From contig JAFTYS010000018.1 in assembly GCA_017461285.1 (NCBI GenBank), forward strand, positions 1-64,000: a DNA stretch of 64,000 nt, given 5' to 3'. Source of the DNA: Bacteroidales bacterium (lineage in GTDB: Bacteria > Bacteroidota > Bacteroidia > Bacteroidales > UBA932). A model generated the notes under the pieces. The model made no database searches, was not told the DNA's origin, and worked only from the letters and a program-made list of their open reading frames with translations. A program made the position numbers and the translations under genes. Positions 612-52,273 of this stretch are shown here, in pieces (within the stretch, counting starts at the first letter, position 1; every line of letters starts with the position of its first letter).

Positions 612-2339
612 ATGAACAGAAGACAGACAATCATATGTTCAGGCCTGTCAGCGGCATTTCTGCTGCTGGTCTTTGCATTCTTCAACTTCATTTATCCTTA
701 TCACATCCACTATCAGGAACAGATGCAGATGTTCCGTTTCAGAGCGGATTATTTCCGTGAAAGCATTGCTGTTCCGGGAGGTTTAGGCGACTGGGCCGGA
801 GGCTTCCTCGTACAGTTCTTCTATTATGCTCCGGCAGGCGCCCTCATCATTTCCATACTGCTGGGACTGATTCAGCTGCTTACCTGGAAAAACATGGAGA
901 AGGGATCTTTCGCCGCCTATCCGCTGAGTTTCTTGCCGCCGGCCGCGATGTTCCTCTTCCTATGTGACGAGAACGCGCTCATAACAGCAGCTGTCGCCAT
1001 CATAGCATCCCTGGCCCTGTCCATAGCACTGATGAAGATACGGAAGGCCGGTATCAGAAGCATCATAGCCATTCTCCTCATGCCGGCTATGTACATGCTA
1101 TTCGGAAGCATCAGCATACTTGTACCTGCCGTTATGGCGGTCAGGGCTTTCCTGCGCAAGGAAAACATGAAGGTCACGGCAGCTTTCGCATTCGCCGCCC
1201 TGATGATGGCAGCTGAACTTCCTCTGATAGCTCGCGAATACAGTCCGTACCCTCTTGACAGGCTGTATTTCGGAGTCCATTACCACCGCTACCACAACGC
1301 CATCCCTATGCTTGCATGGATATCCGAGCTGCTCGTTCCTGCAGCAGTCGCCATCGCGCCGTTCTTCAGGAAGGACAGGATGGCGGTCCTGAGCCTGGCA
1401 GTCGCCATCCTGCCTGCAGCATGCCTTGCCCCGACATTCACAGACATGGACAAGGAAAGACTGTTCGGCTACGACTTCATGGCAAGGATGGGACAATGGA
1501 ACAAGATACTCGCGACCTCCGACAGACACGCTCCCGATTCCCCTATCGCTGTGGAATGTACGAATCTTGCGCTCGCAAAGACCGGACATCTGGCCAGCGA
1601 CATGTTCGCCTTTTTCCAGAACGGTCCTGCCGGCCTGCTTCCGGAGTTCACGAGGGATCATTTCTCGCCCGTGCCGACAGGAACGGTCTACTATCATCTG
1701 GGCATGATAAACACTGCCCAGACATTCTTCTTCGAAGCCCAGGAAGGAATTCCTGACTTCCAGAAGAGCGCCAGACTCACGCAGGCCCTGACCAAGACCA
1801 ACCTTATAAACGGAGACTACGAAGTCGCAAGAAAATATGTCAACGCACTCAAGCAGACCCTGTTCTACAGGAAATGGGCGAAGGAGACCGAGAAGCTGCT
1901 GGACAATCCGGGACAGATTAATTCCGTACCGGAATACGCATGGATGCGTTCAGTCAGAATGAAGGAACACGACATCATGTTCAGCCAGGAGGAGCTGGAT
2001 TCGATGCTCGGCCTGCTCTACGTTGAAAACGACACGAACACAATGGCGATGGACTATCTGCTCGCATGGTGCCTGCTTCGCAAGGATCTGCCGCGATTCT
2101 TCGAATGTCACCAGCTTCTGAAGACAGGATATGATGCCCGCCATTATCAGGAAGCTGTCGTCCTTTACTGGGCCCTCACCCACGACGGCCCGGAAGGCAT
2201 GCCTGACTTCATATCAAGAAAGACCGCTGCTAGCTTCACTAAGTTCATTACCGCCCTTCAGAGCGGCAGGAATGAGGCAAGCATGCAGAAGGAATTCGGA
2301 AACACATACTGGTTCTACTATCACTATCGCTTCAAATGA
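612..2339 (+). CDS. Multi-spanning membrane protein with TPR-like C-terminus (M-type, DUF6057-like)
   Basis: 575 aa. About eight hydrophobic segments fill residues 7-275 (clear ones near 7-28, 62-90, 123-141, 150-180, 187-205, 230-252, 259-274). The rest is a hydrophilic helical region with TPR-like units, such as GDYEVARKYVNAL followed by TLFYRKW, ending in the aromatic tail NTYWFYYHYRF. The same layout occurs in three paralogues at 12529-18289. From memory it resembles the Bacteroidetes family annotated DUF6057; its function is unknown to me. Its stop overlaps the start of the CxxCH lipoprotein gene (ATGA at 2336-2339), so the two proteins are made together and probably work together at the inner membrane and periplasm. 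No promoter box was seen directly upstream; readthrough from 199-206 is possible. Confidence 0.7.
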   Translation: MNRRQTIICSGLSAAFLLLVFAFFNFIYPYHIHYQEQMQMFRFRADYFRESIAVPGGLGDWAGGFLVQFFYYAPAGALIISILLGLIQLLTWKNMEKGSFAAYPLSFLPPAAMFLFLCDENALITAAVAIIASLALSIALMKIRKAGIRSIIAILLMPAMYMLFGSISILVPAVMAVRAFLRKENMKVTAAFAFAALMMAAELPLIAREYSPYPLDRLYFGVHYHRYHNAIPMLAWISELLVPAAVAIAPFFRKDRMAVLSLAVAILPAACLAPTFTDMDKERLFGYDFMARMGQWNKILATSDRHAPDSPIAVECTNLALAKTGHLASDMFAFFQNGPAGLLPEFTRDHFSPVPTGTVYYHLGMINTAQTFFFEAQEGIPDFQKSARLTQALTKTNLINGDYEVARKYVNALKQTLFYRKWAKETEKLLDNPGQINSVPEYAWMRSVRMKEHDIMFSQEELDSMLGLLYVENDTNTMAMDYLLAWCLLRKDLPRFFECHQLLKTGYDARHYQEAVVLYWALTHDGPEGMPDFISRKTAASFTKFITALQSGRNEASMQKEFGNTYWFYYHYRFK

Positions 2340-3769
2340 TGAAAAGACTTGCATACATATTCATGAGCATCCTGATGCTCGGCTCATGCTACAGGTTCGA
2401 TCCGGCCGAGGCCCGCTATACAGACGGGCCCGTATGGCCGGACTATATGAATGTGACGGTCCCTGCAGGAATAGCACCGCTCAATTTCTGCTATACCGCC
2501 GAAGACGGTCCGGTACCGGTCACCACCTTCAGCCACGGAGAGATGAGCATCTCCATCAAAGGACGTGAAGTCGTCTGGAAGGACAAGGAATGGAAGAAGC
2601 TTCTCGAAGCCGCAAAGGGAGGAGACATAACCGTCAGGAGCAGCGTGCTTCCCGACGAATGGACCATCCATGTGTCGGAAGACGAGATAGACTACGGCAT
2701 CAACTACCGTCTGATCGCTCCGGGCTATGAAGTATACAGCAAGATGGGCATATACGAAAGAGAACTGTCCGGCTACAAGGAGAGGGCACTCATCGAAAAC
2801 ACACAGTTCGACGGTTGTGTGAACTGCCACTCGTACAACAGAGGCAACCCGGCAGACTACAGCCTCCATATCCGAGGTGCCCACGGCGCCACCCTCCTCA
2901 ACATAGGAGGAGAAATGGCCGCCTACAACACCAAGACAGACAGCACGCTGGGATTCTGCGTATATCCGTACTGGCACCCGGAAGGAGATTACATAGCATA
3001 CTCGTCGAACAACACCCGTCAGGGTTTTCATGTCCTCGCCGACAAGCTGATCGAAGTGTTTGACCTTGATTCGGACCTGCAGGTCTATGACATCAGGAAC
3101 AACTGCCTCATAACTGCCGCATCCGTAAAGGAAAAGGATGTTTGGGAAACCTTCCCGGCATTCTCTGCGGACGGAAAGACATTATACTTCTGTGCGGCAA
3201 CGCCTAGACCGATTCCTGCGGAAACGGATCAGATCAGATACAACCTATGCAGCGTGGATTTTGACCCGGCTACCGGTACAATAGGTTCCCGAATTGACAC
3301 GCTTGTATTCGCAGAAGGCATGGGCAAGAGCGTATCTTTCCCGAAGCCGTCATATGACGGCAGGTTCCTTGTCTATACGCTTTCCGACTATGGAAACTTC
3401 AGCATATGGCATCACGAGGCCGACCTCTGGATAATGGATCTGGCGACAGGCGAATCACGTCCGATGTCCCTCGCGAACAGCGGAGACACCGAATCTTATC
3501 ACAGCTGGTCTTCCAACAGCCGCTGGATGATGTTCAGCAGCCGCAGGGATGACGGTCTGTACACCCGCCTGTTCTTCACCCATATAGACGAGAACGGCCA
3601 GGAGACCAAGCCGTTCATGCTTCCTCAGAAGCATCCTCTCCACTACTACAATTACCTGAACAGGTCCTACAACGTACCGGAGTTCGTTACAGGACCTGTA
3701 GATCTGGACCGTGTAGAGGCCGAAAAGCTGATCAACTCAAGCGAGCGCATCCAGTTCGGCTTCAGATAG
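2336..3769 (+). CDS. Lipoprotein with CxxCH heme-c-like motif and TolB/PD40-type propeller (L-type)
   Basis: 477 aa. Lipobox LMLGSC (Cys18). Then a beta domain with the family signature DYMNVTVPAGIAPLNF (residues 36-51), an RLIAPGY motif (124-130), and CVNCH at 161-165 with a conserved His at 178 (HIRG). C-terminal blades follow with TolB/PD40 features: WHPEGDYIAYSS, TFPAFSADGKTLYF, YHSWSSNSRWMMFSSRRDDG. CxxCH is the covalent heme-c attachment motif; the downstream His could be the other axial ligand (inference). Alternatively the Cys pair could form a disulfide or bind metal. The gene overlaps the M-protein gene upstream by 4 nt and converges with the HdeD-like gene, overlapping it by 8 nt. 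Its role is unknown; the context suggests envelope redox or sensing linked to glycan use. Confidence 0.7.
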   Translation: MMKRLAYIFMSILMLGSCYRFDPAEARYTDGPVWPDYMNVTVPAGIAPLNFCYTAEDGPVPVTTFSHGEMSISIKGREVVWKDKEWKKLLEAAKGGDITVRSSVLPDEWTIHVSEDEIDYGINYRLIAPGYEVYSKMGIYERELSGYKERALIENTQFDGCVNCHSYNRGNPADYSLHIRGAHGATLLNIGGEMAAYNTKTDSTLGFCVYPYWHPEGDYIAYSSNNTRQGFHVLADKLIEVFDLDSDLQVYDIRNNCLITAASVKEKDVWETFPAFSADGKTLYFCAATPRPIPAETDQIRYNLCSVDFDPATGTIGSRIDTLVFAEGMGKSVSFPKPSYDGRFLVYTLSDYGNFSIWHHEADLWIMDLATGESRPMSLANSGDTESYHSWSSNSRWMMFSSRRDDGLYTRLFFTHIDENGQETKPFMLPQKHPLHYYNYLNRSYNVPEFVTGPVDLDRVEAEKLINSSERIQFGFR

Positions 3770-6130: not shown

Positions 6131-6132
6131 TT

Positions 6133-7929
6133 TCAGTTTCTCATCAGACCGTTAGCGAAGCCTGCATAGGCATACTTGCGGTTGTAGTTCTGATCCCAGA
6201 GTCCTACAGGCTCGCCGCCTCTCCATCCTGTGCCGAGAGCGCCAGGGGCGTCGGTAGGACACCACTGAGTTATACCATACTGCTGTGCAGGAGGGACTAT
6301 CTCGAAATACTTGGTGACGATGAAATCATAGTAATCTGCCATCTTCCTATGCTGCTCATCTGTCAGTTGAGAAGTCGAGAGGGTTGTACCGCTACTGTTC
6401 ACATATCCCATATCAAGCTCGGATATCTTCACCAGCTTGCCGGTATTCGCCATCAGCTGCAGCATCTTCACGACATGATCCTCCTTGCTCTTCTGAGTCT
6501 GAGGATTCTCATAATATGAGATATGCATCTGTGTGCCGATTCCGTCGATCTTCGTCACGCCGTCCGACTCCCAGACACCGATCCAGTGGATAAGGCTCTT
6601 GAGCTTCTTGTTGTCGTCCCAGTCAGACTCGAGATTGTAGTCGTTGATGAAGAGTCTCAAAGGAGCTGTTCCACCGAATTCCGCATAATACTTGCGTGCC
6701 TTCTCAATGACGATGCGGACATAATCTCCGGAACCGAGATAGTCCTGCCAATAGAAGTTGTTCGAACTTCCCCACTCTGCAGATTCAAGTTCATAGAATC
6801 CGTCTCCGTTGGTATCACGGCCTGAAACCGACTCATTGACAGCGTCCCATGCAGAGACCCTTGTCGCGGTCACTTCCATCACAGCCTTTATCCAGCGGTC
6901 CATAGCCTCTGTAAGGGCCTCCTTCTTCTCAGCGGCAGTCATAGGCTCGTATGTATAATTCACACCGGTCGCGGTAAACACGAAGTCATCGATATAGATA
7001 TCTCCCACAAACTCTCCGAAGCTGAAGATAAGACGCGTTCCTCCTTCTGCAGTACACTCACACTCGATGTCGACATCCTTCCACTCCGTAGTGAACTGGA
7101 CTCCAGGGAACTCACCGGCAGACTTGTAGCCGTCAGTGATCTGGAAACCTGAGTCAAGCCTTCCGGCTGCAGATCCCTTGATTCTGAATGAAAGAGTATA
7201 CTTCTGGCCGAGTTCGAACGGTTCTGCAAAATCATGAGCGAACTGAGCTTCCCAGTTGTTTACGGCAGACGGATTGGTGACCTTGAAGGCTCCGTTCTCA
7301 ACCGTGCGGCTGGAGTTGTTTCCCCAACCTCCGAAAGGATGTGCACCATCATTGAAATCTGCCTCCAGAAGAACAGCTTCGCCGGTTCCGTCAGGGACCT
7401 CGACCTTCTTTCCCTGGATAAGACCGCGGAGATAATCATTCGACTGCTGCGAATGCCATGCAAGAGTATGACCGTAGACGGTCATGCCGGCCTCCTCGGC
7501 AGCATCAAGGAAATTCCTGACCTGAGTGAAGTCCATGGATCCGTCCCTTCTGAGAATCGATGCCTGCTTCATTGCATTTCCTGCTGTCATTTCATCGAAA
7601 TTCTCTGTAGCCATCTTATATTCTTCAGTCTTGCGCAAGAAGTTGCTGACAGTGACTGCTGCTCCCAGCTTGAAGTCAGGGGATGTCGTCCTGTTCACAT
7701 AATTCTTAAGATAGTCGTACTGGGCAAGATTATCATAAGTCAGCTTGTTGTCAGTTCCCGGCTTCTCCTGTTCAGTACCCTCATTTCCTCCTGTATCCGG
7801 CTTAGGATCCGGCTTTTCGGTCGGGGTCGGTTCCTTCTTTGTCTCGTCCAGATAATCATCCGGGAAACATGATGTCCAGCAGAACATCGCAAGAGCCGCA
7901 GCTCCCGTCATCTTCAAAATTCTCTTCAT
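6133..7929 (-). CDS. GH10 endo-beta-1,4-xylanase lipoprotein with one inserted binding module
   Basis: 598 aa from the ATG at 7929; an upstream TTG at 7944 would overlap the GH5 gene and is less likely. Lipoprotein signal ends at SC (Cys21), followed by a Pro/Glu/Asp-rich linker. The GH10 barrel starts near residue 65, and the conserved WHSQQSNDYL is at about 158-167. A carbohydrate-binding-like beta sandwich of about 140 aa (VLLEADFND to YIDDFVF, about 186-319) is inserted before the second half of the barrel. Acid/base Glu366 (WDAVNES) and nucleophile Glu504 (KISELDMG) are present. Insertion of a module at this site is known from Bacteroidetes Xyn10 enzymes. It is probably surface-anchored and cuts xylan. 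It lies between GH5 (7-nt gap) and GH35 (2-nt gap). Confidence 0.88.
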   Translation of the reverse strand: MKRILKMTGAAALAMFCWTSCFPDDYLDETKKEPTPTEKPDPKPDTGGNEGTEQEKPGTDNKLTYDNLAQYDYLKNYVNRTTSPDFKLGAAVTVSNFLRKTEEYKMATENFDEMTAGNAMKQASILRRDGSMDFTQVRNFLDAAEEAGMTVYGHTLAWHSQQSNDYLRGLIQGKKVEVPDGTGEAVLLEADFNDGAHPFGGWGNNSSRTVENGAFKVTNPSAVNNWEAQFAHDFAEPFELGQKYTLSFRIKGSAAGRLDSGFQITDGYKSAGEFPGVQFTTEWKDVDIECECTAEGGTRLIFSFGEFVGDIYIDDFVFTATGVNYTYEPMTAAEKKEALTEAMDRWIKAVMEVTATRVSAWDAVNESVSGRDTNGDGFYELESAEWGSSNNFYWQDYLGSGDYVRIVIEKARKYYAEFGGTAPLRLFINDYNLESDWDDNKKLKSLIHWIGVWESDGVTKIDGIGTQMHISYYENPQTQKSKEDHVVKMLQLMANTGKLVKISELDMGYVNSSGTTLSTSQLTDEQHRKMADYYDFIVTKYFEIVPPAQQYGITQWCPTDAPGALGTGWRGGEPVGLWDQNYNRKYAYAGFANGLMRN

Positions 7930-7936
7930 AGCGTTA

Positions 7937-9904
7937 TTATTCAATGGTTATCTTATCGATTATTATCGGCTTGCCACCCAAAGACCAGAAGCCTGCAATA
8001 TAGATATGCGCAGGGCTTATTGCATTGCCGTTCTTATCCTTCATCGAGTGGAGGTCTACCACCACCTTGCGCGAGTTTCCGAAATCATACATCGCTGGAT
8101 CGCTCCAGTAATTGTTCTTGTCAAAGAGGCGGAAGGAAACCTGGCTGTCATTGTTGTTTCCGAGTTCGACCGTAATCGTGCTGAAGCCGGAAAGATCCAG
8201 TCCCTCGGCATACTGCCATCCTCCGAAGCCGTACTGGCCGGTGATGAGGGTCCTTGTCGTCTCGTCGAAAGATCCTGTCTCCCAGATCGACGGATTGAAC
8301 ATCGCTGCCGTAAGAGGGAAAGGAGTGATCACATTGACTGCCACAGTCACGGACTTGGTCACGTCCGCCTGTGATGTATACGAAACGGTAAGATTTGCCT
8401 TGCCTTCACGAACGGCAATCAGCTTTCCTCCTTCAACAGACACGATTCCGGTCTTGTCCAGAACGAACTCCGCCTTATCTGTCACCGGCTTCACGGTTCC
8501 GTCCGCATATACGGCATTGACCATCAGGCTCTTGCTGTCACCCATACGGATATCAAGCGTACCTTCCACGCCCTTGATTTCCAAAGACGTCAGTTCTCCT
8601 TCAGGAACAGCTTCACCAGCATATTCCTTGAACCAGTGATATACAGGCCAAGGACATGCTTCAGGGTCATTAAGGAAAGTGTAATTGCCCGGAGTTCCCG
8701 GTACATCCCTGAACTGTGCCAGAAGCTCAGGGCTGGTGAAGATCATCCAGCTCACGTTGCCGGAATTGTCGGCTATGTACTTGAAGTTCGCTCCGAATCC
8801 CTTGCCGCCTGCAACGCCGGTGATGCTCTTTCCCCATGACGAATCATATTTCCTCGGCGCCCAGTCCATCTCGGTGACCATCACAGGCGCATAATCGGCA
8901 ACAGGCTTGATCTGAGCGTCCCAGCCTCTCTGGAATCCTTCATATCCGCCGCCGATGATGCTTCCTTCGATATTCTCCTTAGGTTCCTCCTCAGCATCGC
9001 TGTTATACCAGCCCGGATAGACATGGATCGCGAATCCGATGTTCTCGCCTGTAAAGCGATGCGTCGCATAACCGGCATACTGGGACTGATAGCCAAGACC
9101 CGGAACCCAGATGATGTTGCGTGCGCCATTACCACGTATCTCGTCAATCACTGCCTGGAAATAAAGCTGCATGTTCTTGAAATGGCTGTCGCCGGAACCG
9201 GCATAGGTTCCGTCCGGTCCCTTGATATGGATAGGTTCATTTGCAAGCTCGAACATGACCTTGCCGTTGTTCTTCAGCTTCTTATGCTTCGAAACGATAT
9301 CCCAGACCTTTATCAGGAAGGCCTGATAATCATCGTTCAGGGCGATCTTTTCCGGAGACACCCCAGGAGGACGCATCACGACATACAGTCCCTTCGAATT
9401 GGCGTATTCCACCATAGGTACAAACACCTCGTCCAGATACTTCCTGAAACGGCTTTCAGAGAATCTCTCATGGCCTTCGTACCTGACTGACTCCTGGTTC
9501 GGATCGTCGCTCCAGTACGGGTCCATATGCATACGCACGAAGTTCATCCTCCAGCCGTTCGCCAGAATCTGGTCTATCATGCTCTTGTTGTGGCGCAGAC
9601 ATCCTGCCACATCATAATTGTTCCAAGCCCAGTTGTTGAAGAACGGGCTGAAGGTCTGGCCGAAACCATGAAGATTCACGACATTGCCTTCCGCATCCAT
9701 CAGATAGCGTCCGACGACATTCAGTTCCAGCGGAGTGCCGTCATCGGTATCCGTACCTTCTTCCGGACCGGTTCCTGGTTCCGTTTCCTGTTCTTCCTTA
9801 TCCACAACAGGTTTCTGCTCTTCCAGATAATCATCCGGAAAGCATCCCGGCAGGCCTGCAAACGCCAGCACCGCCGTCATAAGCATAATGGAAAATCGTT
9901 TCAT
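7937..9904 (-). CDS. GH5 family glycanase lipoprotein with Ig-like and C-terminal binding modules
   Basis: 655 aa from the ATG at 9904; the frame is open further upstream but runs into the repeat and the preceding gene. Lipobox LPGC (Cys21), then an acidic linker with EEQ and DTDDG. The GH5 barrel covers about 60-445: RMNFVRMHMDPYW (119-131), acid/base Glu223 in ELANEP, HVYPGWY (294-300), nucleophile Glu345 in VTEMDW. A BIG2-like Ig domain follows (about 455-545), then a beta-sandwich with GGWQYAEGLDLSGFSTITVE that looks like a carbohydrate-binding module. The subfamily is unclear: endoglucanase, mannanase and GH5_21-type xylanase are all possible; the GH10 neighbour favours xylan. The N-terminus after the lipobox (FPDDYL) is nearly identical to the next GH10, suggesting exchange of secretion signals. 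Confidence 0.82.
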   Translation of the reverse strand: MKRFSIMLMTAVLAFAGLPGCFPDDYLEEQKPVVDKEEQETEPGTGPEEGTDTDDGTPLELNVVGRYLMDAEGNVVNLHGFGQTFSPFFNNWAWNNYDVAGCLRHNKSMIDQILANGWRMNFVRMHMDPYWSDDPNQESVRYEGHERFSESRFRKYLDEVFVPMVEYANSKGLYVVMRPPGVSPEKIALNDDYQAFLIKVWDIVSKHKKLKNNGKVMFELANEPIHIKGPDGTYAGSGDSHFKNMQLYFQAVIDEIRGNGARNIIWVPGLGYQSQYAGYATHRFTGENIGFAIHVYPGWYNSDAEEEPKENIEGSIIGGGYEGFQRGWDAQIKPVADYAPVMVTEMDWAPRKYDSSWGKSITGVAGGKGFGANFKYIADNSGNVSWMIFTSPELLAQFRDVPGTPGNYTFLNDPEACPWPVYHWFKEYAGEAVPEGELTSLEIKGVEGTLDIRMGDSKSLMVNAVYADGTVKPVTDKAEFVLDKTGIVSVEGGKLIAVREGKANLTVSYTSQADVTKSVTVAVNVITPFPLTAAMFNPSIWETGSFDETTRTLITGQYGFGGWQYAEGLDLSGFSTITVELGNNNDSQVSFRLFDKNNYWSDPAMYDFGNSRKVVVDLHSMKDKNGNAISPAHIYIAGFWSLGGKPIIIDKITIE

Positions 9905-9917
9905 ATCATCGAACACT

Positions 9918-11054
9918 TTATAAAGATCCTTCGCTTCGCTCAGGATGACACACTGCCATACATTCCATTTCAATAAGCCAGCCCGGACGGCATACAGGAG
10001 CCCATACGAAGACCTTCGGATGGTCCGGGAAGCTTTCCTCGTACATGGCACGGACGCATGCATAGTCAGCGACATCGCGCAGATATACGATCATATGCAT
10101 CACATCGCCGTATGATGCGCCAGCCTCTGCAAGCAGGACCTCGACATTCTCCCACATCCTGAGCGTCTGGAGACGGATGTCTCCCGGGTGGACGATCTGT
10201 CCCTTGTTGTCGATGCTGGCAGTGCCGGAGATGATCACATGTCTGCGGTCATCGTAATCCACGGCCGTACCGCGCTCGAAGGTCACTCCGTATTCGTGGG
10301 TCGGATTCAGATGGGTCGCTCCCTTCAGGTAAGTCACCTTCTCTGCCGGCATACCTGCCGCTGCATATGCATCCAGGGCCACATACGACCCGCACACAGG
10401 ATTGTTTCCTGCGATTCCGGTGCTCGCCAGATAATGCGTTTCCTTCGTAAGTCCCATGGAATCGAAACGCTCCCTTCTGCCCTTCACCACGCCTGCATAG
10501 TTATGGTCCACATCGTGGACGAAGAACCATGTACGGAGGCAGTGGTTCGGGATATCGCATCCCTCTGCCGCGAGAGCGTCAGCAAACTTATCCATTATCA
10601 TATAGGTCTGCTGCTCCGAATCAGGGCCGATGCCGAATCCGTTGCCCATCCAGAGATGCTTGTGGCCAAGATAGTCGAAGGCCCACAGTCCGTCATGCTC
10701 CGAAGGAGCCTCGCATGAAACAAGATAAGCCCACATGGCTATCTTGCTTCCGTCAAGAGGAGGCTGTCCGACTGTCGACACCGCACATTCCCAGCGCCCG
10801 TCCAGCATTCTGTCCAAGGCTTCCGACTGGTTCGCCACATCGCTGAGGAAATAGCGCACGAATACAGGTCTGGCACCGCCGCATTCCTGCACGGCTGCGG
10901 CATCAAAGGCAGCGTGGAGCGCATCCACCTGCTGTCGGAATGTTCCTTCTCCGGACACATGGACCATCATATGGTATTCGCTGAACCCTCCGTCCTTCGA
11001 GAAAGACGAAACCTGCACAGAAGCATTCTTATAATCGATCGTCATATTCTTCAT
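9918..11054 (-). CDS. Chorismatase/XanB2-like protein of the Rid (YjgF) superfamily
   Basis: 378 aa, no signal peptide, so cytoplasmic. The central part has CLRTWFFVHDVD then GRRERF (about 167-195). The C-terminal half has ISGTASIDNKGQIVHPGD followed by WENVEVLLAEAG, the arrangement of chorismatase/FkbO/Hyg5/XanB2-type enzymes, which fuse an N-terminal domain to a YjgF-like barrel and make hydroxybenzoate from chorismate (known of the family). Arg105 of classical RidA does not appear conserved at the aligned site, arguing against simple imine deaminase activity. The start is 5 nt after L3. The last codons CHPERSEGS are encoded exactly by the 27-nt repeat at 9924-9950, so the natural C-terminus may have been replaced by repeat insertion. 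Substrate unproven. Confidence 0.65.
   Translation of the reverse strand: MKNMTIDYKNASVQVSSFSKDGGFSEYHMMVHVSGEGTFRQQVDALHAAFDAAAVQECGGARPVFVRYFLSDVANQSEALDRMLDGRWECAVSTVGQPPLDGSKIAMWAYLVSCEAPSEHDGLWAFDYLGHKHLWMGNGFGIGPDSEQQTYMIMDKFADALAAEGCDIPNHCLRTWFFVHDVDHNYAGVVKGRRERFDSMGLTKETHYLASTGIAGNNPVCGSYVALDAYAAAGMPAEKVTYLKGATHLNPTHEYGVTFERGTAVDYDDRRHVIISGTASIDNKGQIVHPGDIRLQTLRMWENVEVLLAEAGASYGDVMHMIVYLRDVADYACVRAMYEESFPDHPKVFVWAPVCRPGWLIEMECMAVCHPERSEGSL
9924..9950 (-). repeat. 27-nt dispersed repeat, copy 2 (in frame at the 3' end of the chorismatase-like gene)
   Basis: Identical over 27 nt to 4388-4414 but in the opposite orientation. On the minus strand it is read as nine in-frame codons, CHPERSEGS, followed by Leu and stop. 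It lies 19 nt upstream of the GH5 start. Confidence 0.85.
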
Positions 11055-11059
11055 TTATA

Positions 11060-12532
11060 TCATTTTCTTTTAAATCCTACCTTTCGGGCCTCGCCGCTGC
11101 GTGCGAATGACGCTATGTCGCTACCCTTCAATGCGATCTTTCCGCTGACGAATTCCGGTATGTTGTATGAGTACATCTGTGACTCATAATATCTTCGTGG
11201 GTCTCTCTGCGGCAGGAGGAAAGGCTTATGCGCATTTCCGTCGCCGTCTATGTATGAGAAATACGGTTTTGTATAAAGTCCGTCATCCCTTCTTGTGCTG
11301 AACACGAGCCAGCGGCTGTTGCCGCTCCATGAATGATAGCTTTCCACATCGCTGCTGTTGAGCGCCTCCATACAAGAGGTCTTGCCTATATGCAGATCTA
11401 TCGAATAAAGATCGGAATCCTTATGCCAGATCGAGAAGTTTCCGTAATCGCTCAAGGCATAGACAAGGAAGCGGCCGTCAGGAGAGATGCGCGGGAATGA
11501 AACGCTCCTTCCTCCGGTCCTGGCGTTGTATAGGGTGTCGACTTGGGTTCCGAACGAGCAGTCTTCAGGATTGAAGTCCACACGGCACAGGCTGTACTTC
11601 GCTTCCCTGAACTTCTCCGGCATCGGTCCTACAGCTGCTGAAGAGCAGAAATACAGACTCTTTCCGTCAGGAGAAAATGTCGGGAAGGTTTCGAAGGCAC
11701 CTTCGGAACTCAAGACATCGGCCGTGACTATTTCATGCCTTTCAACATCGTATACGACCACATCAGAAGCTTCGTCGAAGACTTCTATCCTGTCCGGGTC
11801 ATGGACAAGAAGGGTCTGGTTGGTCCTGTTCACAGAGAAAGCCACATAGCGTCCGGATGTATGCCAGTACGGATATACCAGGGCGGATATCGTCTCATCA
11901 GTCTTTGTGTCAAGCTTCTCTCTGGTGCCGTCTCTGAATACATATGTTCCTCCGAATTCGGAGCGCATATGCATCAGCATTTCTTCCGGGTCACGGTCGC
12001 GGAAAGAGTGGCAGTTCACGCAGTTGCCCCTGCCCTGGGTGTTTCGGTATATCGCTGTCTCACGGAATGAGGTCAGGTCCCTCTGATATATTCCCATCTC
12101 CTTCCACAGGCTGTATCCCGGAGGTATCAGTCTGTACGCAAGATAAGGGTCCATCTCTTCCGGAGCGACATAAACCTCATACGGAACACATGCAGTCCAT
12201 CCGTCTTCGCCACGGAAGCATAGAGTGAAGGTCATCGTCTTTCCTCTGTTTTCCCGGAGAAGGGTCTTCCAGAGGCCTCGGCCGAAGGCAAAGAGGCCGT
12301 TGTCCGCACGCATGTAACGGACAGCGTCAGCAGTCTCGATCACCAGCGCCCAGTCCCTTTCCAGAGAGTCAATGACTTCAAAATTCAATGGGGCGACATT
12401 GACAGGAACCGTAACATCCTTATAATCAGGGAATATCTCCGGAGCAAAATCCGATTTTACGGTTATGTCTATCTTTGAGGAGCATCCGCAAAACATGAGC
12501 AGCAAAGCTCCGAACATCATCAGTCTTCTCAT
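11060..12532 (-). CDS. Lipoprotein L3: CxxCH motif plus TolB/PD40-type propeller
   Basis: 490 aa. Lipobox MFCGC (Cys17), signature DYKDVTVPVNVAPLNF (36-51), RLIPPGY (134-140), CVNCH at 171-175, conserved His188 in MHMR. Propeller-type strands include WHTSGRYVAFSVN, TFPTFSPDGKSLYF, SFPRISPDGRFLVY and YHSWSGNSRWLVFSTRRDDG. The CVNCHS form makes it closer to the L protein at 2336-3769 than to L1 and L2 (CLNCHHF). The start overlaps the M3 stop by ATGA, so the gene order is M then L as in the + strand pair. Likely lipid-anchored in the envelope. A heme-c role is inferred from the motif only. Confidence 0.7.
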   Translation of the reverse strand: MRRLMMFGALLLMFCGCSSKIDITVKSDFAPEIFPDYKDVTVPVNVAPLNFEVIDSLERDWALVIETADAVRYMRADNGLFAFGRGLWKTLLRENRGKTMTFTLCFRGEDGWTACVPYEVYVAPEEMDPYLAYRLIPPGYSLWKEMGIYQRDLTSFRETAIYRNTQGRGNCVNCHSFRDRDPEEMLMHMRSEFGGTYVFRDGTREKLDTKTDETISALVYPYWHTSGRYVAFSVNRTNQTLLVHDPDRIEVFDEASDVVVYDVERHEIVTADVLSSEGAFETFPTFSPDGKSLYFCSSAAVGPMPEKFREAKYSLCRVDFNPEDCSFGTQVDTLYNARTGGRSVSFPRISPDGRFLVYALSDYGNFSIWHKDSDLYSIDLHIGKTSCMEALNSSDVESYHSWSGNSRWLVFSTRRDDGLYTKPYFSYIDGDGNAHKPFLLPQRDPRRYYESQMYSYNIPEFVSGKIALKGSDIASFARSGEARKVGFKRK

Positions 12533-13980
12533 CTTCCGCTCTCCTTTTCTATAAGTTCATACACTTGATGGAACTGGGACACTATCCTTTGCGAAGGATC
12601 GGCTTCCAGAATGTCCCTCATATCCCCTTCAAGACCCTCATAGCGTATATGCATGTCCGGAAGCTGCGGCGCATGGAATTCTTTCTCCAGGCCTGCCCGC
12701 AGTTCTGCGGCCATTCCACGATAGAACAATGTCTTTTCAAGAATCGATATGTATTTCTCAGCCACATCATATGCTCCAAGCGCGGCATTTGTCTTGATCA
12801 GGACCATAAGCTGTCTCGGATTGGCATTTCCGGAAGTGACGGTATTTGCATCGAAGGCTGCCTGACGTGCAGCGGCATGATAGTCCCATGCCGAATATAC
12901 TGCGCTCTGAAGCGTCAGTCCTGTCTTCAGATTAGGTGTCGGATACATGATGCGGGAGAGGTCCTGCGGATTGTAATACATGAAGTTCTTTACAAGGATT
13001 CCTTTCTGGGCCAGGGCCAGGTTCAGATAACTGACAAGGTAGGTAGGCTGGCGTCTGTCAGCGGTCTTTATTATCCTGTCCCACTCGCCTGTTTCCGTCC
13101 AGTACTGCTCCTGGATAAGACGATAGTAGCTTCTGCTGTGGACCTTGCCATATAAGTTTCCTGCGATGAAGAAGGAGATCACTAGCCCGAGGGCGAGGAT
13201 GGCCTTCGAGTAAGCTGGCTTGACATCCATACGTCCGATGATCCATGCCGCAAGCACTACAGCAGGAACCATTGACCATGCATATGCAGGGAAGAAATAT
13301 GTCGACGGCCATTCATAGTACATGAAAGGAGTAAGAGCATGCTCCCAACCGCTCACAAGCGAGAATCTGACATATATGAATGCCGTCAAGCCCATAACGG
13401 CCGGGAAGATCAGAGCCGCGAGTCCTTTCAGGCCATCCCCTATAACCTCCCACAACAGGGCTGTTACGGCAAATACGACGGCTACACTTCCGGCAGCATG
13501 AAACAGCACCGGAATCATAAGCGCTCCGACAATATATCGCACCGGCCTCCTTGCCACAGACACATATGCATAAAAGCAAGCAAGCATCAGGATGAATGCG
13601 GCATGGCCCTGGAACCTGTAATAGTCATTCTCCATGCACAGGAACAGGAATGCTGCCGGAAGAAGACATAATCCTGCTACTGACTTTGCTTCAGTCCTCC
13701 TGCGAAGAATCCTGTATAGCAGCCATGCAGACAGGATATATATTCCGGTCAGGATGAACGTACCCGCAAACGGGATCCTCATGAACTGGGTCAGGAATGA
13801 AGCCAGAAGTGTCGCCAATCCGCCGGTCCTGGCCAGTTTGGATGCTATATCCGCCCAATCATAAAGGAAGAGGTCGTTGCTCTCGATGTTGTAGAACCGG
13901 AACTCCTGAGCAATGTGGATTCCGGCCGCCATGCATATGCAGACTGCCGCAAATATCAATATGTGGAGACCTTTCTTCAT
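12529..13980 (-). CDS. Membrane protein M3 (M-type, shortened C-terminus)
   Basis: 483 aa. N-terminal hydrophobic segments (about 5-22, 50-90, 105-150, 155-205, 225-275) and a TPR-like region with GAYDVAEKYISILEKTLFYRG, close to the + strand M protein (EVARKYVNALKQTLFYRK). Compared with that 575-aa paralogue it stops about 100 residues early and lacks the aromatic TYW tail shared by the other three copies. Because its stop forms an ATGA overlap with L3, this end looks settled rather than a sequencing error. Function unknown. It follows M2 with a 3-nt gap. Confidence 0.65.
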   Translation of the reverse strand: MKKGLHILIFAAVCICMAAGIHIAQEFRFYNIESNDLFLYDWADIASKLARTGGLATLLASFLTQFMRIPFAGTFILTGIYILSAWLLYRILRRRTEAKSVAGLCLLPAAFLFLCMENDYYRFQGHAAFILMLACFYAYVSVARRPVRYIVGALMIPVLFHAAGSVAVVFAVTALLWEVIGDGLKGLAALIFPAVMGLTAFIYVRFSLVSGWEHALTPFMYYEWPSTYFFPAYAWSMVPAVVLAAWIIGRMDVKPAYSKAILALGLVISFFIAGNLYGKVHSRSYYRLIQEQYWTETGEWDRIIKTADRRQPTYLVSYLNLALAQKGILVKNFMYYNPQDLSRIMYPTPNLKTGLTLQSAVYSAWDYHAAARQAAFDANTVTSGNANPRQLMVLIKTNAALGAYDVAEKYISILEKTLFYRGMAAELRAGLEKEFHAPQLPDMHIRYEGLEGDMRDILEADPSQRIVSQFHQVYELIEKESGR

Positions 13981-13983
13981 ATT

Positions 13984-15396
13984 CTAATATACATAAGCCC
14001 AGTAAGTGTCGGCATATTTCCTTTTCGCCTGACCGGTCTGGCCCTTGCTCATCATTTCAGTAAAGTCGGCAAAACGCTTCCATACGGTTCCGTTTACCGG
14101 AAACCTGTCCAGCACCTGAGGATCACGGGTCGCGATCAGGCACATCGCTTCCTGATAGAGGACAGGCATGGTCCTGGTGTCCTGGTAATGATTGCCTGCG
14201 GCCTGGTTGAACACATTCATGAACATACCGGCATTCTTGTCGGCCAGAAGTGCGCACAAGAAATAATCGGCATATTTCTTATTCTCGGGATATCTGGCGG
14301 TAAGAGCCGTGATATCATTGTAGAAGTCCTTGAAAAGGAAAGGGCTGCCGGTCATCGGATACTCCGGTTCAGCGTCTCTGATCGTCTCCAGTTTCTCCTT
14401 GCGGTCACGCACCCATTTCCTGTTGAATGAGGAGCGGTCAAGGATATCGACATATCGTGCAGCCAGGTCATGATCCTTGAGTGCGATATAGGCATCAGCC
14501 AAGGTCCTCATTGCATCAAAGCTCAACCCCGGAGAAGACTGCAGCGACTGCTGGTACGCGTAATATATGACAGGATTCTGCAGTCCGAGGGCCCTGTAGA
14601 AGAGGATGTTGAACTTCATGGACAGAGGGCCGTCCTGCTGCCTTAAGACAAAATCATCAGCCCCCGACAGACCATATCGGAAAGCATAGTCCGGCAGCCT
14701 GTCTGTCTCAGACAATGCGAGAAGGACATATCTGCGCATGAACCCGTTTGAAAGAGCGTCCTGGCGTGATACGGACTTAAGGATGCCGTCCCAGTCCTCA
14801 TGCTCGCCCATGTAGGCGAGACGGGCGATGGCTTCATGCTGGCGCGTAAGCGGTCCGGCATGAAGAAGATATATCGAAAACATGACTGAAAGAGCCGGCA
14901 CGGCATAAATCAGCCAATTGAATTTCAAAAACTTAGGAAGCTTTGCAGAAATTCTGACAAAGCATGTGAAGATCAGGACGGCAAGAGTAACGGCCGTCAC
15001 GATCGTAAGCATGACGCACACCTTTACCAATGTGATGTCGGTCAGCTGAAGATACACAACGGCTGGAACAGCAAGGAATGACAGCCAGAACAGACCATCG
15101 GAATCCTTGAAAAGCCTCTTCACAATGAGCCACACGCATATGGCCACGAATACAGGAACCGCAGCCTGGACTGCAGCTCCGGCTGCAGGATAGGCGAAGA
15201 ACTTCAGAAGGAAAGAAGCCATATAATTGAAGAGGTCTCCCGGAAGTTCGTACTGTATCGGCAGGAAATCAGGAAGAGCGGTAAAGAAGGATGAGCCTTC
15301 CATCCACACCATGAAATATGGGAAGCAGATATACCATCCGCCCCATACCAGCAGGAATGCCGCAAGTGTTATGATCAGCTTCTTCATATCCTTCAT
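13984..15396 (-). CDS. Membrane protein M2 (M-type, TPR-like C-terminus)
   Basis: 470 aa. First segment near residues 6-28, then PYFMVWMEGSSFF, which matches HYLIWLEGYSFF in M1 and is a conserved loop of the family. Several more membrane segments follow up to about residue 195. The C-terminal half carries the TPR-like unit LKDHDLAARYVDILDRSSFNRKW and ends KYADTYWAYVY. Start chosen at 15396 because its ATG overlaps the stop of L2 (ATGA). Paired with L2. Most similar to M1, suggesting duplication of an L-M pair. Confidence 0.68.
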   Translation of the reverse strand: MKDMKKLIITLAAFLLVWGGWYICFPYFMVWMEGSSFFTALPDFLPIQYELPGDLFNYMASFLLKFFAYPAAGAAVQAAVPVFVAICVWLIVKRLFKDSDGLFWLSFLAVPAVVYLQLTDITLVKVCVMLTIVTAVTLAVLIFTCFVRISAKLPKFLKFNWLIYAVPALSVMFSIYLLHAGPLTRQHEAIARLAYMGEHEDWDGILKSVSRQDALSNGFMRRYVLLALSETDRLPDYAFRYGLSGADDFVLRQQDGPLSMKFNILFYRALGLQNPVIYYAYQQSLQSSPGLSFDAMRTLADAYIALKDHDLAARYVDILDRSSFNRKWVRDRKEKLETIRDAEPEYPMTGSPFLFKDFYNDITALTARYPENKKYADYFLCALLADKNAGMFMNVFNQAAGNHYQDTRTMPVLYQEAMCLIATRDPQVLDRFPVNGTVWKRFADFTEMMSKGQTGQAKRKYADTYWAYVY

Positions 15397-16844
15397 TCTT
15401 CTGTCTTGAACAATTCCTCAGCCTCTTTCGGAAGCTTTACCTCTCCGTCTATGAACTCCGGCACATTGAACGACTTGAGACGCCATGCATGCTGCCGCGG
15501 ATCCTCCTGCGGCAGGAGAAAAGGCTTATCGGGCTTTCCGTTTTCATCTATATATGCAATGAAGAGACGGGTGTACCTTCCGTCCAGCCTGCGGCTTCCG
15601 AAAATCACCCATCTTCCGTCAGATGACCAGGAATGATAGCTGTCCGCCTGTGCTGATGCATTCAGCCTTGAAACATCGACATCTTCCATTGTCTGCAGAT
15701 CCATCATCCTCAGGTCTGCATCCTGATGCCAGATCGGGAAGGTACCGTAGTCAGACCATGTGTAAAGCAGATATCGTCCGTCCTGTGAGACTCTAGGATA
15801 GGAGACGCTTCCACCAAGCTTACGCGAATTGTAAAGGGTATCTACCTGAGCATCAAAAGATCCCGTCTGAGGATCGAAGGCGACGCGAAGCAGGTCGTAA
15901 TGCATGTCCAGAGAGAATTCGACAGGCAGAGAATCGGCCGTATATGATGCGAAATACAGATATTTTCCGTCCGGCGACCAGGCAGGGAAGGTCTCGAGCG
16001 ACTCTTCGGTAAAGAAACGCGGATCCACCAGCACCTCTCCCCTCTCGGTATCATAAACGACCAGGTCTGAAGCGGTATCGAAGACTTCCACCTGCTGACG
16101 TCCTTCTCCGAAGAAGACCTGGTGGGTTGTGTTCGAAGAAAATGCTATATAGCGTCCTTCAGGATGCCATGCAGGATAGGTCGTATTCCTGTTCGGCCAG
16201 ATCTCATCGAACCTGATCTTTGAGAGTCTGCCGTTATGATAAAGAATGGTTCCTCCATTTGCTCCGCGGGCATGGAACATCATGCTTCCAGAAGAATATG
16301 AAGGGAAATGATGGCAGTTGAGGCATGTGGAGATGGTCTCATGGTTTGTGACGATGGCCGATTCCTTAAAGGATGTCAGGTCCCGCTGATAAAGGCCAAG
16401 CTGCCTCCAACTGACGTATCCCGGCTCTATCAGACGGTATGCCACCCAAGGATCTATCTCTCTGTCTTCCACATGGATAGGGAAAGGAAGATATGCCATT
16501 CCCTGCGGATAGTCATCGCTCCATACAGATACATATACGTCAATATTTCCTCCTGCAGCCAGCTTCAGCATCTCGCGCCATTTCTTAAGAGGAATCTGCA
16601 CTACCCCTTCCCTTCCCCTGACCTTCAGGAGTTCATTCCCCTCATGACGGAAACTTGCCTGAATACGGCCGGCATCTTCAACCATGAAGTTCAGAGGGGC
16701 TATATTGCTCGGGATAGTGACTTCAGCATAATCCGGGAAAATCACAGGCCTGCATTCTGCAGCCGACCTGGCTGACTTCCATGATGTACATGCAGTCAGA
16801 CAGATGGCCATGCAGGCTATGAGGAATATGCTGTATCTCTTCAT
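15393..16844 (-). CDS. Lipoprotein L2: CxxCH motif plus TolB/PD40-type propeller
   Basis: 483 aa. Lipobox LTAC (Cys19) then TSWKSARS. Signature DYAEVTIPSNIAPLNF (38-53), RLIEPGY (137-143), CLNCH at 174-178 followed by HFPSYSSGSMMF and the conserved His191 (HARG); propeller strands WHPEGRYIAFSSN, TFPAWSPDGKYLYF, SYPRVSQDGRYLLY, YHSWSSDGRWVIFGSRRLDG. Close to L1 along its whole length. The pair of Met residues before His191 offers another possible axial ligand. Overlaps M2 by ATGA and starts 11 nt after M1. Confidence 0.7.
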   Translation of the reverse strand: MKRYSIFLIACMAICLTACTSWKSARSAAECRPVIFPDYAEVTIPSNIAPLNFMVEDAGRIQASFRHEGNELLKVRGREGVVQIPLKKWREMLKLAAGGNIDVYVSVWSDDYPQGMAYLPFPIHVEDREIDPWVAYRLIEPGYVSWRQLGLYQRDLTSFKESAIVTNHETISTCLNCHHFPSYSSGSMMFHARGANGGTILYHNGRLSKIRFDEIWPNRNTTYPAWHPEGRYIAFSSNTTHQVFFGEGRQQVEVFDTASDLVVYDTERGEVLVDPRFFTEESLETFPAWSPDGKYLYFASYTADSLPVEFSLDMHYDLLRVAFDPQTGSFDAQVDTLYNSRKLGGSVSYPRVSQDGRYLLYTWSDYGTFPIWHQDADLRMMDLQTMEDVDVSRLNASAQADSYHSWSSDGRWVIFGSRRLDGRYTRLFIAYIDENGKPDKPFLLPQEDPRQHAWRLKSFNVPEFIDGEVKLPKEAEELFKTEE

Positions 16845-16855
16845 GTTTCTATCTG

Positions 16856-18289
16856 TTAATAAGAGTAGGCCCAGTATGTATCGGCATACTTTCTCAATGC
16901 CTGGGTTCCTTTGCCTGAATTCATAAGTCCGGCAAAGTCAGCGAACCTCTTCCTTGTGTCTGCGCTGATCCGGATTCCTGCAACAGACTGCGGGTCTATT
17001 GTAGATATCATAAGCAGGGCTTCTTCATACAGACGCGGTATAGGTGTACCTGCAGGATATTGAACTTCAGCGACATAACGGAAAATATCCTTGAACTTCC
17101 CGCCTTCCTGATCGGCTAGAAGCGAACACAGAAGCAGGTCTGCGTATTTACGGTTATCCCTGTTGCGGTCCACCATGGACGATATGACATGGGTAAAATT
17201 CGAAATGGTGGCCTTATACTCGTCATAAGCATATTCCGGTTTCACATTCCTGATGGCCTCAAGTTGCGGAAGTCTTTCCTTTACCCACGCCTTATGGCAT
17301 GAAGAATGGCTGAGGATGTCCACATATTTCCTTGCCAGATCATAATCCTTCAGTTCGATGTATGTGTCAGCAAGCCTCCTGAGCGAAGAAAAGCTAACGC
17401 CGGTCACAGACTGTACACCCTGCTGGTAGGCCTGATGGATGACAGCATTGTACATGTCATTGCACTGATAGAAGAGAGCGTTATAATTCAGACATAGCGG
17501 AGAAATCTTGTCCGTAAAGACAAAATCTGATTCTCCTTGCAGTCCGTACCTGAATGCATGCTCCGTGAGAAGTCCGGATTCAGACAGCGCGAGCAGAGCA
17601 TAGGCACGCTTCAGTTCGTCTGTCCTGGCATCTTTCGGGGAGACAGTGTCCAGGATATCATCCCAACGGCGGTTCTCTCCAAGATATTCCAGACGGGTGT
17701 ACTCCTCATGTGTCCTTTTACCGTTTTCATCTCTGGCGATGAACCATACTGAAACAGAAGCCGCAACAACAGTCAGAGCCATATTCAGATATATGTTTCC
17801 CATCCGTTCAGGCACTTTCCATTCAGGCTTGACGAATGCCGTTACGGCAAGCGTCAGGACCATCAATATCAAGGATGCGATATCAGCAGTTACAGTATAA
17901 TAGAGATGGAAATCCCAGAACTGACGATAGGTTATGAATGCAAGCGGAATTACGGAAACCCATAGGATATCTTCAGGATTCTTGAAAAGGCGTATGAGGA
18001 TAATTCCCAAACAGAATGCAGGAATTACTGTCAGGAGTGACTGAATTGCCGCTCCCAGCAACGGTATGTGATAAAACTGATGCAGGAACGCGCCGATATA
18101 GCCTGGCAGGCCTTCCTTTATGCTGAAATACTGTGAGGCAAAGTCCGGAAGAGTCGAAAAGAACGAATACCCTTCCAGCCAGATCAGATAGTGGCGGTAG
18201 CAGAAGAACCAGACCGACCAGAAGACGACGAAAAGCAGGGCTGCAATCACCAGCAGGGACCTCACAGGGGTAAAAAACGATTTCTTCAT
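16856..18289 (-). CDS. Membrane protein M1 (M-type, TPR-like C-terminus)
   Basis: 477 aa from the ATG at 18289 (MKKSFF); a longer start at 18313 would overlap L1 and is less likely. Hydrophobic segments lie near 9-32, 62-90, 95-115, 120-145 and 160-180, with the loop HYLIWLEGYSFF shared with M2. The C-terminal half contains LKDYDLARKYVDIL and ends KYADTYWAYSY. Follows L1 by 7 nt. Role unknown; pairing with a CxxCH lipoprotein is constant. Confidence 0.68.
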   Translation of the reverse strand: MKKSFFTPVRSLLVIAALLFVVFWSVWFFCYRHYLIWLEGYSFFSTLPDFASQYFSIKEGLPGYIGAFLHQFYHIPLLGAAIQSLLTVIPAFCLGIILIRLFKNPEDILWVSVIPLAFITYRQFWDFHLYYTVTADIASLILMVLTLAVTAFVKPEWKVPERMGNIYLNMALTVVAASVSVWFIARDENGKRTHEEYTRLEYLGENRRWDDILDTVSPKDARTDELKRAYALLALSESGLLTEHAFRYGLQGESDFVFTDKISPLCLNYNALFYQCNDMYNAVIHQAYQQGVQSVTGVSFSSLRRLADTYIELKDYDLARKYVDILSHSSCHKAWVKERLPQLEAIRNVKPEYAYDEYKATISNFTHVISSMVDRNRDNRKYADLLLCSLLADQEGGKFKDIFRYVAEVQYPAGTPIPRLYEEALLMISTIDPQSVAGIRISADTRKRFADFAGLMNSGKGTQALRKYADTYWAYSY

Positions 18290-18296
18290 ATCCAGC

Positions 18297-19757
18297 CTAT
18301 TTTTCCGGTTCAAAAAGTTTCACAACGGAATCCGGCAGGTCGACTTCCCCATCGATGAATTCCGGTACATTATAGGACTTCAGACGCCACAGATTATACC
18401 TAGGGTCTTCCTGCGGAAGAAGGAAAGGCTTGTCAGGATTTCCATCTTCATCAAGATATGCGATATAGAGTCTGGTATATCTTCCGTCAAGCCTGCGGCT
18501 TCCGAACACGATCCATCGGCCCTCCGACGACCATGAATGATAGCTGTCAGCCTCTTCAGGGGCGTTCAGGCAAGATACATCCACATGCTCCATTGTCATG
18601 AGATCGATCATCCTGAGGTCTGCTTCAGGATGCCATATAGGGAAGGTTCCGTACTCGGACCAAGTATAAAGCAGGTATCGGCCATCAGCGGAAATCCTTG
18701 GATATGACGCACTTCCGCCCGATATTTCAGCATTATAAATGGTATCTGTCTGTCCGAAGGTCTTTGTTGAAGCATCGAATGGTACACGCAGGAGGTGGTA
18801 ATGCATCTGTTCCACCTGATCAGGAAGGTTCTTTGCATCAGCGGCGGCATAATAAAGATGTTTTCCATCCGGAGACCAGGCAGGGAAAGTCTCGAGAGTC
18901 TCTTCCGTCATGAAACGCGGGTCTGTGATGACTTCGCCGGTCTCAGTATCATACACAAGCAGGTCTGAGGCATAGTCATATACCTCAAGAGGCTTCTCAC
19001 CGTGAAGGTAGAAGGTCTGTCTTGTAGTATTTGACGAAAAAGCGATCAGGCGGCCGTCGGGGTGCCATGCAGGATATGTGGTATTCTTCTTCGGGCCGAT
19101 TTCATTGAACTTGATCTTCGAGAGCTTGCCGTCATGATAGAGGATCGTACCTCCGTTTCCGCCGCGGGCATGGAACATCATGCTCTGCGAAGAATAAGCA
19201 GGGAAATGGTGGCAGTTCAGACAGGTCTCGTTGTCTGTCGCATTAGTTACAATGGCTGACTCTTCAAAACTTGAAAGGTTCCTTTGGAAAAGGCCCAGCT
19301 GCCTCCAGCTTCTGTAGCCGGGCTCTATCAGACGGTATGCGACCCAAGGATCGATCTCCGTTTCTTCTACATGAATCGGGAAAGGCAGATATGCAACTCC
19401 CTGCGGATGCTCTTCATTCCATACAGACACATACACATCAATGTTTCCTCCTGCAGCTTGAGCCAGCAGTGAGCGCCATTTCTTGAGAGGAATCTGAATT
19501 ACGCCTTCCTTACCCTTTACCTTAAGGAGTTGATTTCCTTCATGACTGAAGCTGGCCTGAATGTGGCCGGCATCTTCCACCATGAAGTTAAGAGGAGCGA
19601 TATTGGCCGGAACTGTGACTTCAGTATAATCCGGAAAGATCACAGGACGGCAATCTGCAGAAATGCTGGCAGACTTCCAGGACGAACATCCGGATAAAAT
19701 GATAATGCTCAATACGATGAGACACTTCGATATAGTATCCCTGTTATATAGTTGCAT
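18297..19757 (-). CDS. Lipoprotein L1: CxxCH motif plus TolB/PD40-type propeller, first gene of the operon
   Basis: 486 aa from the ATG at 19757. The frame is open to 19799, but that start lies upstream of the promoter -7 box (19787-19794); 19769 is also possible. Lipobox LSGC (Cys24) then SSWKSAS. Signature DYTEVTVPANIAPLNF (43-58), CLNCH at 179-183, conserved His196 (HARGG), and propeller strands WHPDGRLIAFSSN, TFPAWSPDGKHLYYAA, YHSWSSEGRWIVFGSRRLDG. Highly similar to L2. It heads the L-M-L-M-M-L array. Confidence 0.7.
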   Translation of the reverse strand: MQLYNRDTISKCLIVLSIIILSGCSSWKSASISADCRPVIFPDYTEVTVPANIAPLNFMVEDAGHIQASFSHEGNQLLKVKGKEGVIQIPLKKWRSLLAQAAGGNIDVYVSVWNEEHPQGVAYLPFPIHVEETEIDPWVAYRLIEPGYRSWRQLGLFQRNLSSFEESAIVTNATDNETCLNCHHFPAYSSQSMMFHARGGNGGTILYHDGKLSKIKFNEIGPKKNTTYPAWHPDGRLIAFSSNTTRQTFYLHGEKPLEVYDYASDLLVYDTETGEVITDPRFMTEETLETFPAWSPDGKHLYYAAADAKNLPDQVEQMHYHLLRVPFDASTKTFGQTDTIYNAEISGGSASYPRISADGRYLLYTWSEYGTFPIWHPEADLRMIDLMTMEHVDVSCLNAPEEADSYHSWSSEGRWIVFGSRRLDGRYTRLYIAYLDEDGNPDKPFLLPQEDPRYNLWRLKSYNVPEFIDGEVDLPDSVVKLFEPEK

Positions 19758-19786: not shown

Positions 19787-19817
19787 CAAATATACGCATT
19801 TATTCTCACTGTGGCAA
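19787..19817 (-). promoter_or_regulatory. Promoter of the L/M-glycanase operon
   Basis: On the minus strand: TTG (19815-19817), a 20-nt spacer, then TATATTTG (19787-19794), a good Bacteroidetes -33/-7 pair. The expected transcript start is near 19781, which decides the start codon of L1. The -33 element lies 4 nt from the T-tract of the upstream terminator. Confidence 0.75.
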
Positions 19818-19821
19818 TAAT

Positions 19822-19849
19822 AAAAAAGGAGGTCCTCGAAAGGACCTCC
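19822..19849 (-). terminator. Rho-independent terminator of the xus operon
   Basis: Stem GGAGGTCCT/AGGACCTCC (9 bp, 19828-19849) with a 4-nt loop, followed on the minus strand by six T and then ATTATT. It lies 22 nt downstream of the xylanase stop. Confidence 0.9.
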
Positions 19850-51461: not shown

Positions 51462-52273
51462 TTCCTGTCACCTCCATTCTTTTTTGAAACAGCAGGAAGA
51501 TAGAACGAAAGTCCCAGGTTTATCGACAAAGGATTTATCCTGAAATTCGCGCCGCTCTGCTGCATGACACTGACGTCAACCTTGTTGGTTTCCTGTCTGA
51601 TATACTGGTAACTCAAGCCTAAGATTCCCACTGCGACTTCAACGCAGACCTCATTCGTAGCAAAGACACAAAGTCCCGGCACGACATTGAGCGCAGCTCC
51701 ATATATATCCTGGAACGTACCCTGATTACGGCCGTTCACGACCTGATATGATACAGACTGCCCGATATCGCAACCAAGACGCAATTCTCCGAACATGGCG
51801 ATCCTGCGGCTGTTGGCTATAGGCATATAGTACCTGGCCGTAACAGCACCCGAATATGAATTCTTCAGAAAATGGAAATCATTCAGGTCAAATGAAGCCA
51901 GATCACCTAAAGAGAGACCAAGAGTGTTAAGTCCCAGTTCTGTCCTGTCATAATCAAATCTGGCACCGATGGAAAGATTGTCTTTGATGAAATATGAGAA
52001 CGATGGTGCCACGCCATATGTCTGCAAGCTTCCCTTTACTCCCGAAAGGAGAGAGAACAAGGCCGAATATCCGGCATCATCAGCTCCGTTGCCGAGATCA
52101 TATGTCTTATAAGAAAACGACAGTCCTCCTCCCATATATCCCTTAGGGATGAAAACGGAGTTCATCTTGCCTACACCGCGGTCAAAGGCAGCAGCCTCTT
52201 CCTCGGAAGAAGAGGCTGACACCATAGGTGCGATGATGATAATGCACAGAAAAGTCAATAATAACTTCTTCAT
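51458..52273 (-). CDS. Small outer-membrane beta-barrel-like protein
   Basis: 271 aa with cleavable signal (MVSASS). Amphipathic strands alternate throughout (GGGLSFSYKTYDLG, SIGARFDYDRTELG, GAVTARYYMP, LGLSFYLP), as in 8- to 12-stranded outer-membrane barrels. No family name is recognised. Its start overlaps the stop of the 752-aa PCMD gene by one base. It may anchor or export the surface lipoproteins of the operon, or merely be a porin-like component. Confidence 0.65.
   Translation of the reverse strand: MKKLLLTFLCIIIIAPMVSASSSEEEAAAFDRGVGKMNSVFIPKGYMGGGLSFSYKTYDLGNGADDAGYSALFSLLSGVKGSLQTYGVAPSFSYFIKDNLSIGARFDYDRTELGLNTLGLSLGDLASFDLNDFHFLKNSYSGAVTARYYMPIANSRRIAMFGELRLGCDIGQSVSYQVVNGRNQGTFQDIYGAALNVVPGLCVFATNEVCVEVAVGILGLSYQYIRQETNKVDVSVMQQSGANFRINPLSINLGLSFYLPAVSKKNGGDRK

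Follow-up and report, generated by a model that had tools for sequence, protein, structure and literature searches.

What is the work of a run of genes for lipoproteins bearing a heme-c-type motif, interleaved with genes for large membrane proteins and set among xylanase genes? The question is raised by a 64,000-nucleotide stretch of a Bacteroidales bacterium (contig JAFTYS010000018.1, assembly GCA_017461285.1), called here the window. It holds an array of six genes, all real, which follow the order L-M-L-M-M-L along transcription, with one further M-L pair apart, L standing for the lipoproteins and M for the membrane proteins. This order had been proposed in a preliminary description made from the DNA letters and is confirmed: every M belongs to the family DUF6057, and every L is a propeller lipoprotein with one CxxCH. 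L and M constitute a real two-protein envelope system, undescribed within the literature searched. The genes concerned are the following.

18297..19757, minus strand: L4, heme-c-motif TolB-type propeller lipoprotein, 486 amino acids (CLNCH at residues 179-183, nucleotides 19209-19223)
16856..18289, minus strand: M4, short-form DUF6057 membrane protein starting at ATG (the mechanical open reading frame begins at TTG, 18313)
15393..16844, minus strand: L3, propeller lipoprotein (CLNCH at nucleotides 16311-16325)
13984..15396, minus strand: M3, DUF6057, short form
12529..13980, minus strand: M2, DUF6057 with a long membrane domain and a shortened C-terminus
11060..12532, minus strand: L2, propeller lipoprotein (CVNCH at nucleotides 12008-12022)
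612..2339, plus strand: M1, full-length DUF6057 with a TPR-like arm after some nine membrane helices (modelled protein)
2336..3769, plus strand: L1, propeller lipoprotein (CVNCH at nucleotides 2816-2830; modelled protein)

Conservation of the L-M pair

Neighbouring genes were compared in the best 80 of 171 L-encoding genome loci, counting L frames of at least 400 amino acids (n=100). For 86 of the 100 L frames, M is the gene immediately upstream on that strand, and for seven it is found only downstream; three L frames stand at a contig edge and four have no M of at least 400 amino acids beside them. Three of these four (L021, L067 and L072) have shorter M pieces, and only L092 remains. Over the 86 pairs, M and L distances are correlated with an r of 0.91, compared with a peak of 0.15 in 2000 permutations. 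Across 218 sampled Bacteroidales genomes, L (match of 298 bits or more) occurs in 25 and DUF6057 (E 1e-10 or better) in 25, an identical set spread over 21 families; another 58 genomes, whose propeller matches were all weaker or partial, are not in this count of L. L was present in 53 of the 393 genomes of a second draw that overlapped the first. Many of the genomes have several paralogous M-L pairs. In the nearest genome (G001) the L and M genes share a contig, and a goat-caecum Bacteroidales contig (locus L023) bears the six-gene array. The adjacency search that the preliminary description had called for therefore finds M and L together well beyond this locus. The pair looks obligate and is accessory within the order, as neither gene was detected in G304, a genome congeneric with G001.

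The L protein and its CxxCH site

PD40 repeats exceed curated cut-offs in all four L proteins which, with six blades, qualify as six-bladed TolB-type propellers; Pfam PF26549 / PF26550 and PD40 are precomputed on most of the listed L homologues in the protein database. L is distinct from the TolB of Tol-Pal, in that it falls below the equivalog cut-off (24.7 to 37.5 bits against TIGR02800, cut-off 343.15), has a CxxCH and is paired with M. A lipoprotein-like signal marks L as exported. The strict lipobox rule recognises 51 of the 100 L, five of which have at least two acidic residues at +2 to +7, as against 28 of the 32 recognised lipoproteins among 46 SusD and GH10 neighbours. Because L mostly lacks the acidic surface-export signal of these neighbours (such a signal is described in PMC5080379), its sequence places it most likely in the periplasm rather than on the surface.

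All 223 near homologues have exactly one CxxCH. They comprise 103 distinct L frames of the loci and 120 listed proteins, the latter being the best 120 of 7964, so that the count leans to near relatives. More distant sequences were reached through the best 120 of 2720 homologues centred on a CxxCH-less relative (genome G662, locus L108), 113 of which keep the motif. Six of the seven without the full motif fall in one clade (one is a fragment), and the seventh has Ser replacing the first Cys. In L1 numbering, the clade has lost C161, C164 and H165 along with some two dozen near-invariant residues, that is, residues at least 97% constant among 233 sequences with CxxCH; these include R125, Y131, N163, H178, Y210, E240, E271, H389, R404, Q431 and N446, while D243 has mostly become Glu and R180 is retained in one of six. 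The propeller core persists, with P35, Y37, W86, W213, H214, P274, S277, D279, G280, K425 and other positions kept. In locus L108 itself the divergent L (5606-7153) is a natural form lacking the heme motif, with DUF6057 still upstream.

According to DSSP of the L1 model and our own blade assignment, CxxCH opens the innermost strand of one blade, near conserved residues, several of which (Y210, E271, H389 and N446) are located in other inner strands; inner strands as a whole hold 12 of 28 lost residues vs 6 of 39 kept ones (hand-made lists). Since one clade lost the motif and near-invariant residues while the propeller core stayed, CxxCH is probably part of one functional site, and a single pocket around it, whose geometry we infer, is the most economical reading. 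The heme-c-type motif noted at the outset is thus a constant feature at what looks like a functional site, and covalent attachment of heme to L, as judged from sequence, is likely.

The M protein

All four M proteins exceed the PF19529 (DUF6057) gathering score of 29.8, with 561, 277, 184 and 191 bits. Pfam assigns DUF6057 no function, and the name was not found in the published full texts searched. The early view that M is a membrane protein bearing a TPR-like arm holds good. Glycosyltransferases of the GT-C type have an acidic residue in the first periplasmic loop, and TMTC and TMEM260 combine a GT-C protein with a TPR arm. In M, the corresponding residue (E36) is E or D in 109 of 112 sequences and is missing from two distant M. 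M shares with these proteins a multispan membrane domain, a TPR-like arm and the first-loop acidic residue; it differs in that no family match was obtained and fold and profile support is moderate, with none to TMEM260 in a profile comparison (sets: PMT_2 9 sequences of 24 loci, TMEM260 12 of 20, FtsW 11 of 18). M resembles, on moderate support, a membrane domain of the GT-C type joined to a TPR arm. Weak PF19529 matches across the phylum were considered as distant M and set aside; the one examined (L097) resembles an FtsW-type protein by eye.

Heme supply in genomes with L

PF01578, the CcsA/CcmC/CcmF type of cytochrome-c assembly protein, was found in 25 of 25 genomes with L and in 157 of 193 without (Fisher p 0.008, uncorrected for kinship). 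It was also detected in 31 of 32 further L genomes, giving 56 of 57 L-bearing genomes overall. The preliminary description had asked whether L is common in genomes without cytochrome c maturation, and on these counts it is not. The assembly protein is nevertheless common in the order, which makes the co-occurrence test only modest. NrfA was considered as a reason for the assembly protein in L genomes and set aside, being over cut-off in only 18 of 57. In G663, G640 and G647 a CcsA-type gene was spotted by eye, among the matches listed, at some 8 kb or less from L, a proximity that may be due to chance. At locus L104 of G640 (6206-17644), the M-L pair shares its strand with genes for an imelysin and a di-heme oxidoreductase, and with one that matches PF01578. 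In G001, a CCP/MauG protein adjoins CcsA, and other cytochromes may thus use the assembly protein.

Transcription and neighbourhood of the array

The array is embedded in a minus-strand xylan-type polysaccharide utilisation locus made of two SusC/SusD-type pairs, a BT_3987-like protein and a GH10 enzyme, followed by the array and then by a RidA-domain protein, a GH5-type enzyme, a GH10 with CBM4_9 and a GH35/42-like enzyme. Two elements lie between the first GH10 gene and L4, and a regulator is encoded elsewhere in the window.

19828..19849, minus strand: intrinsic-terminator-like hairpin (nine pairs, fold z -4.65), then a T tract
19787..19817, minus strand: Bacteroidetes-type promoter-like element TTG-N20-TATATTTG upstream of L4
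33780-37916, plus strand: hybrid two-component regulator

The preliminary description had the array feeding electrons to, or sensing, polysaccharide breakdown as an accessory of xylan utilisation. The array does follow GH10 in the window and in seven relatives, and in five of these seven RidA-like, GH5 and GH10 genes come after it, but in all eight GH10-array gaps the same two signals intervene. The hairpin recurs in 8/8, with letters changed between them; TAnnTTTG, the -7 consensus quoted in PMC7366714, also recurs in 8/8, with TTG at -22 or -23 in 7/8 of the aligned gaps. Counting both strands, TAnnTTTG occurs 27 times in the window, and its expected number in 110 bases on a single strand is 0.02. 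General scans returned no more promoters (13 vs 14.3) or terminators (8 vs 8.5) than shuffled sequence did. With a terminator and a promoter between them, one transcript shared with the upstream xylanase is unlikely, and the array would most likely be its own transcription unit, possibly continuing across a 5-base gap into the RidA-like gene and the downstream GH5 and GH10 genes.

Elsewhere the pair sits beside varied genes. A SusC-type receptor occurs in 31 of 80 loci (a raw count, over flanks of up to 10 kb that are often ended by contig edges), an ABC ATPase gene is the neighbour in 15 loci of Parabacteroides and relatives, and none of the window proteins scanned was named as an oxidative polysaccharide enzyme. 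On this evidence the link to xylan is local and belongs to a single group of gut relatives, and a role of the array as xylan accessory is highly improbable. What stands of the first interpretation is the conserved L-M system, the heme-c-type motif, the assembly protein and M with its TPR-like arm; the xylanase transcript and the general tie to polysaccharide breakdown were not borne out.

Some further features of the surroundings may be recorded. The RidA-like protein (378 amino acids, 9918-11054) has a C-terminal Ribonuc_L-PSP (RidA) domain, and its cluster was found in 8 of 80 L loci. A short element at 9918-9960, which we take to resemble an interspersed bacterial repeat, is read through by the end of this gene and by the upstream extension of the GH5 frame, and translates as PERSEGS / SEAKDL. 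The window also encodes a series of DUF4493 and PCMD proteins (49860-60964) and a putative ten-helix heavy-metal exporter (ArsP_2, 48634-49851) adjoining a DUF1573 protein. No match of the array was obtained against plasmid records.

A proposed heme module and its alternatives

The explanation that we favour is an obligate two-protein envelope module. L would be a lipoprotein facing the periplasm, its propeller preceded by a small beta domain at the N-terminus, and would most likely carry covalent heme at CxxCH; this heme appears catalytic or ligand-binding rather than a plain electron carrier. M would sit in the inner membrane through a GT-C-like domain and most likely dock L by a TPR-like arm on the periplasmic side. 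Our best guess for the job is that L serves as a heme enzyme or sensor in the periplasm, with M as its anchor and control at the inner membrane, and to this reading as a whole we give about an even chance. The computations establish the pairing, the constancy of the motif, its loss with the surrounding site in one clade and the presence of the assembly protein; covalent heme, topology, docking and sensing or catalysis are inferences. A bolder version, in which the heme at the propeller mouth senses redox state, a small gas or an oxidant and switches a GT-C-type activity of M through the TPR arm, so that envelope glycosylation follows redox, is very unlikely.

Several observations weigh against a heme module. 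The co-loss around CxxCH is a single evolutionary event, and the M beside the CxxCH-less L of locus L108 retains E36 and most constant residues, so that M may not depend on heme. One alternative is that M is an active GT-C glycosyltransferase, with L as specificity subunit or acceptor and any heme structural; TMTC proteins likewise join a membrane domain to lumenal TPR. We consider this alternative unlikely. Among the neighbours of L there is no hint of substrate or signal, no CcsA/CcsB-like gene near L in the 80 loci, and a CxxCH in only 1 of 679 other neighbours. PF01578 is widespread in the order regardless of L (182/218) and was not found in the L-bearing G525, L exceeds the cut-off of no known cytochrome c family in Pfam or NCBIfam, and the AF2 model, built without cofactor, has the motif lying in a beta strand, where cysteines three apart would tend to point oppositely. 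The G525 result, the missing family match and the strand position would also favour a TolB-like scaffold on which the motif forms a disulfide or binds a metal, without heme. However, the histidine of CxxCH is as constant as its cysteines and disappears along with these, as do other histidines and arginines, and the assembly protein accompanies L in all but one of its genomes; a heme-free site is accordingly quite unlikely.

Relation to known systems and significance

Two described heme proteins invite comparison. The alpha subunit of hydrazine synthase (5c2v_A) has its hemes in the middle and C-terminal domains (PMC12758564). In contrast, the propeller of L1 runs to the end of the protein at residue 477, contains the CxxCH and is followed by no heme domains, and the alignment of L1 to 5c2v_A spans chain residues 53-431 only. 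TfcP, a repurposed Myxococcus cytochrome c, likewise uses a c-type heme outside respiration, in support of an envelope protein, but is a small cytochrome c domain where L is a propeller (PMC8833165). Sequence catalogues already list the component families, and the novelty appears to lie in the system.

The M-L gene pair is carried by some gut Bacteroidales. Covalent heme in L would make it a heme-c protein whose attachment motif lies in a propeller strand, a case not found in our full-text literature search, which covered its sources in part. DUF6057 would then gain a function, and strict pairing, paralogous pairs and a natural motif-less clade make the role of the pair directly testable in cultured Parabacteroides.
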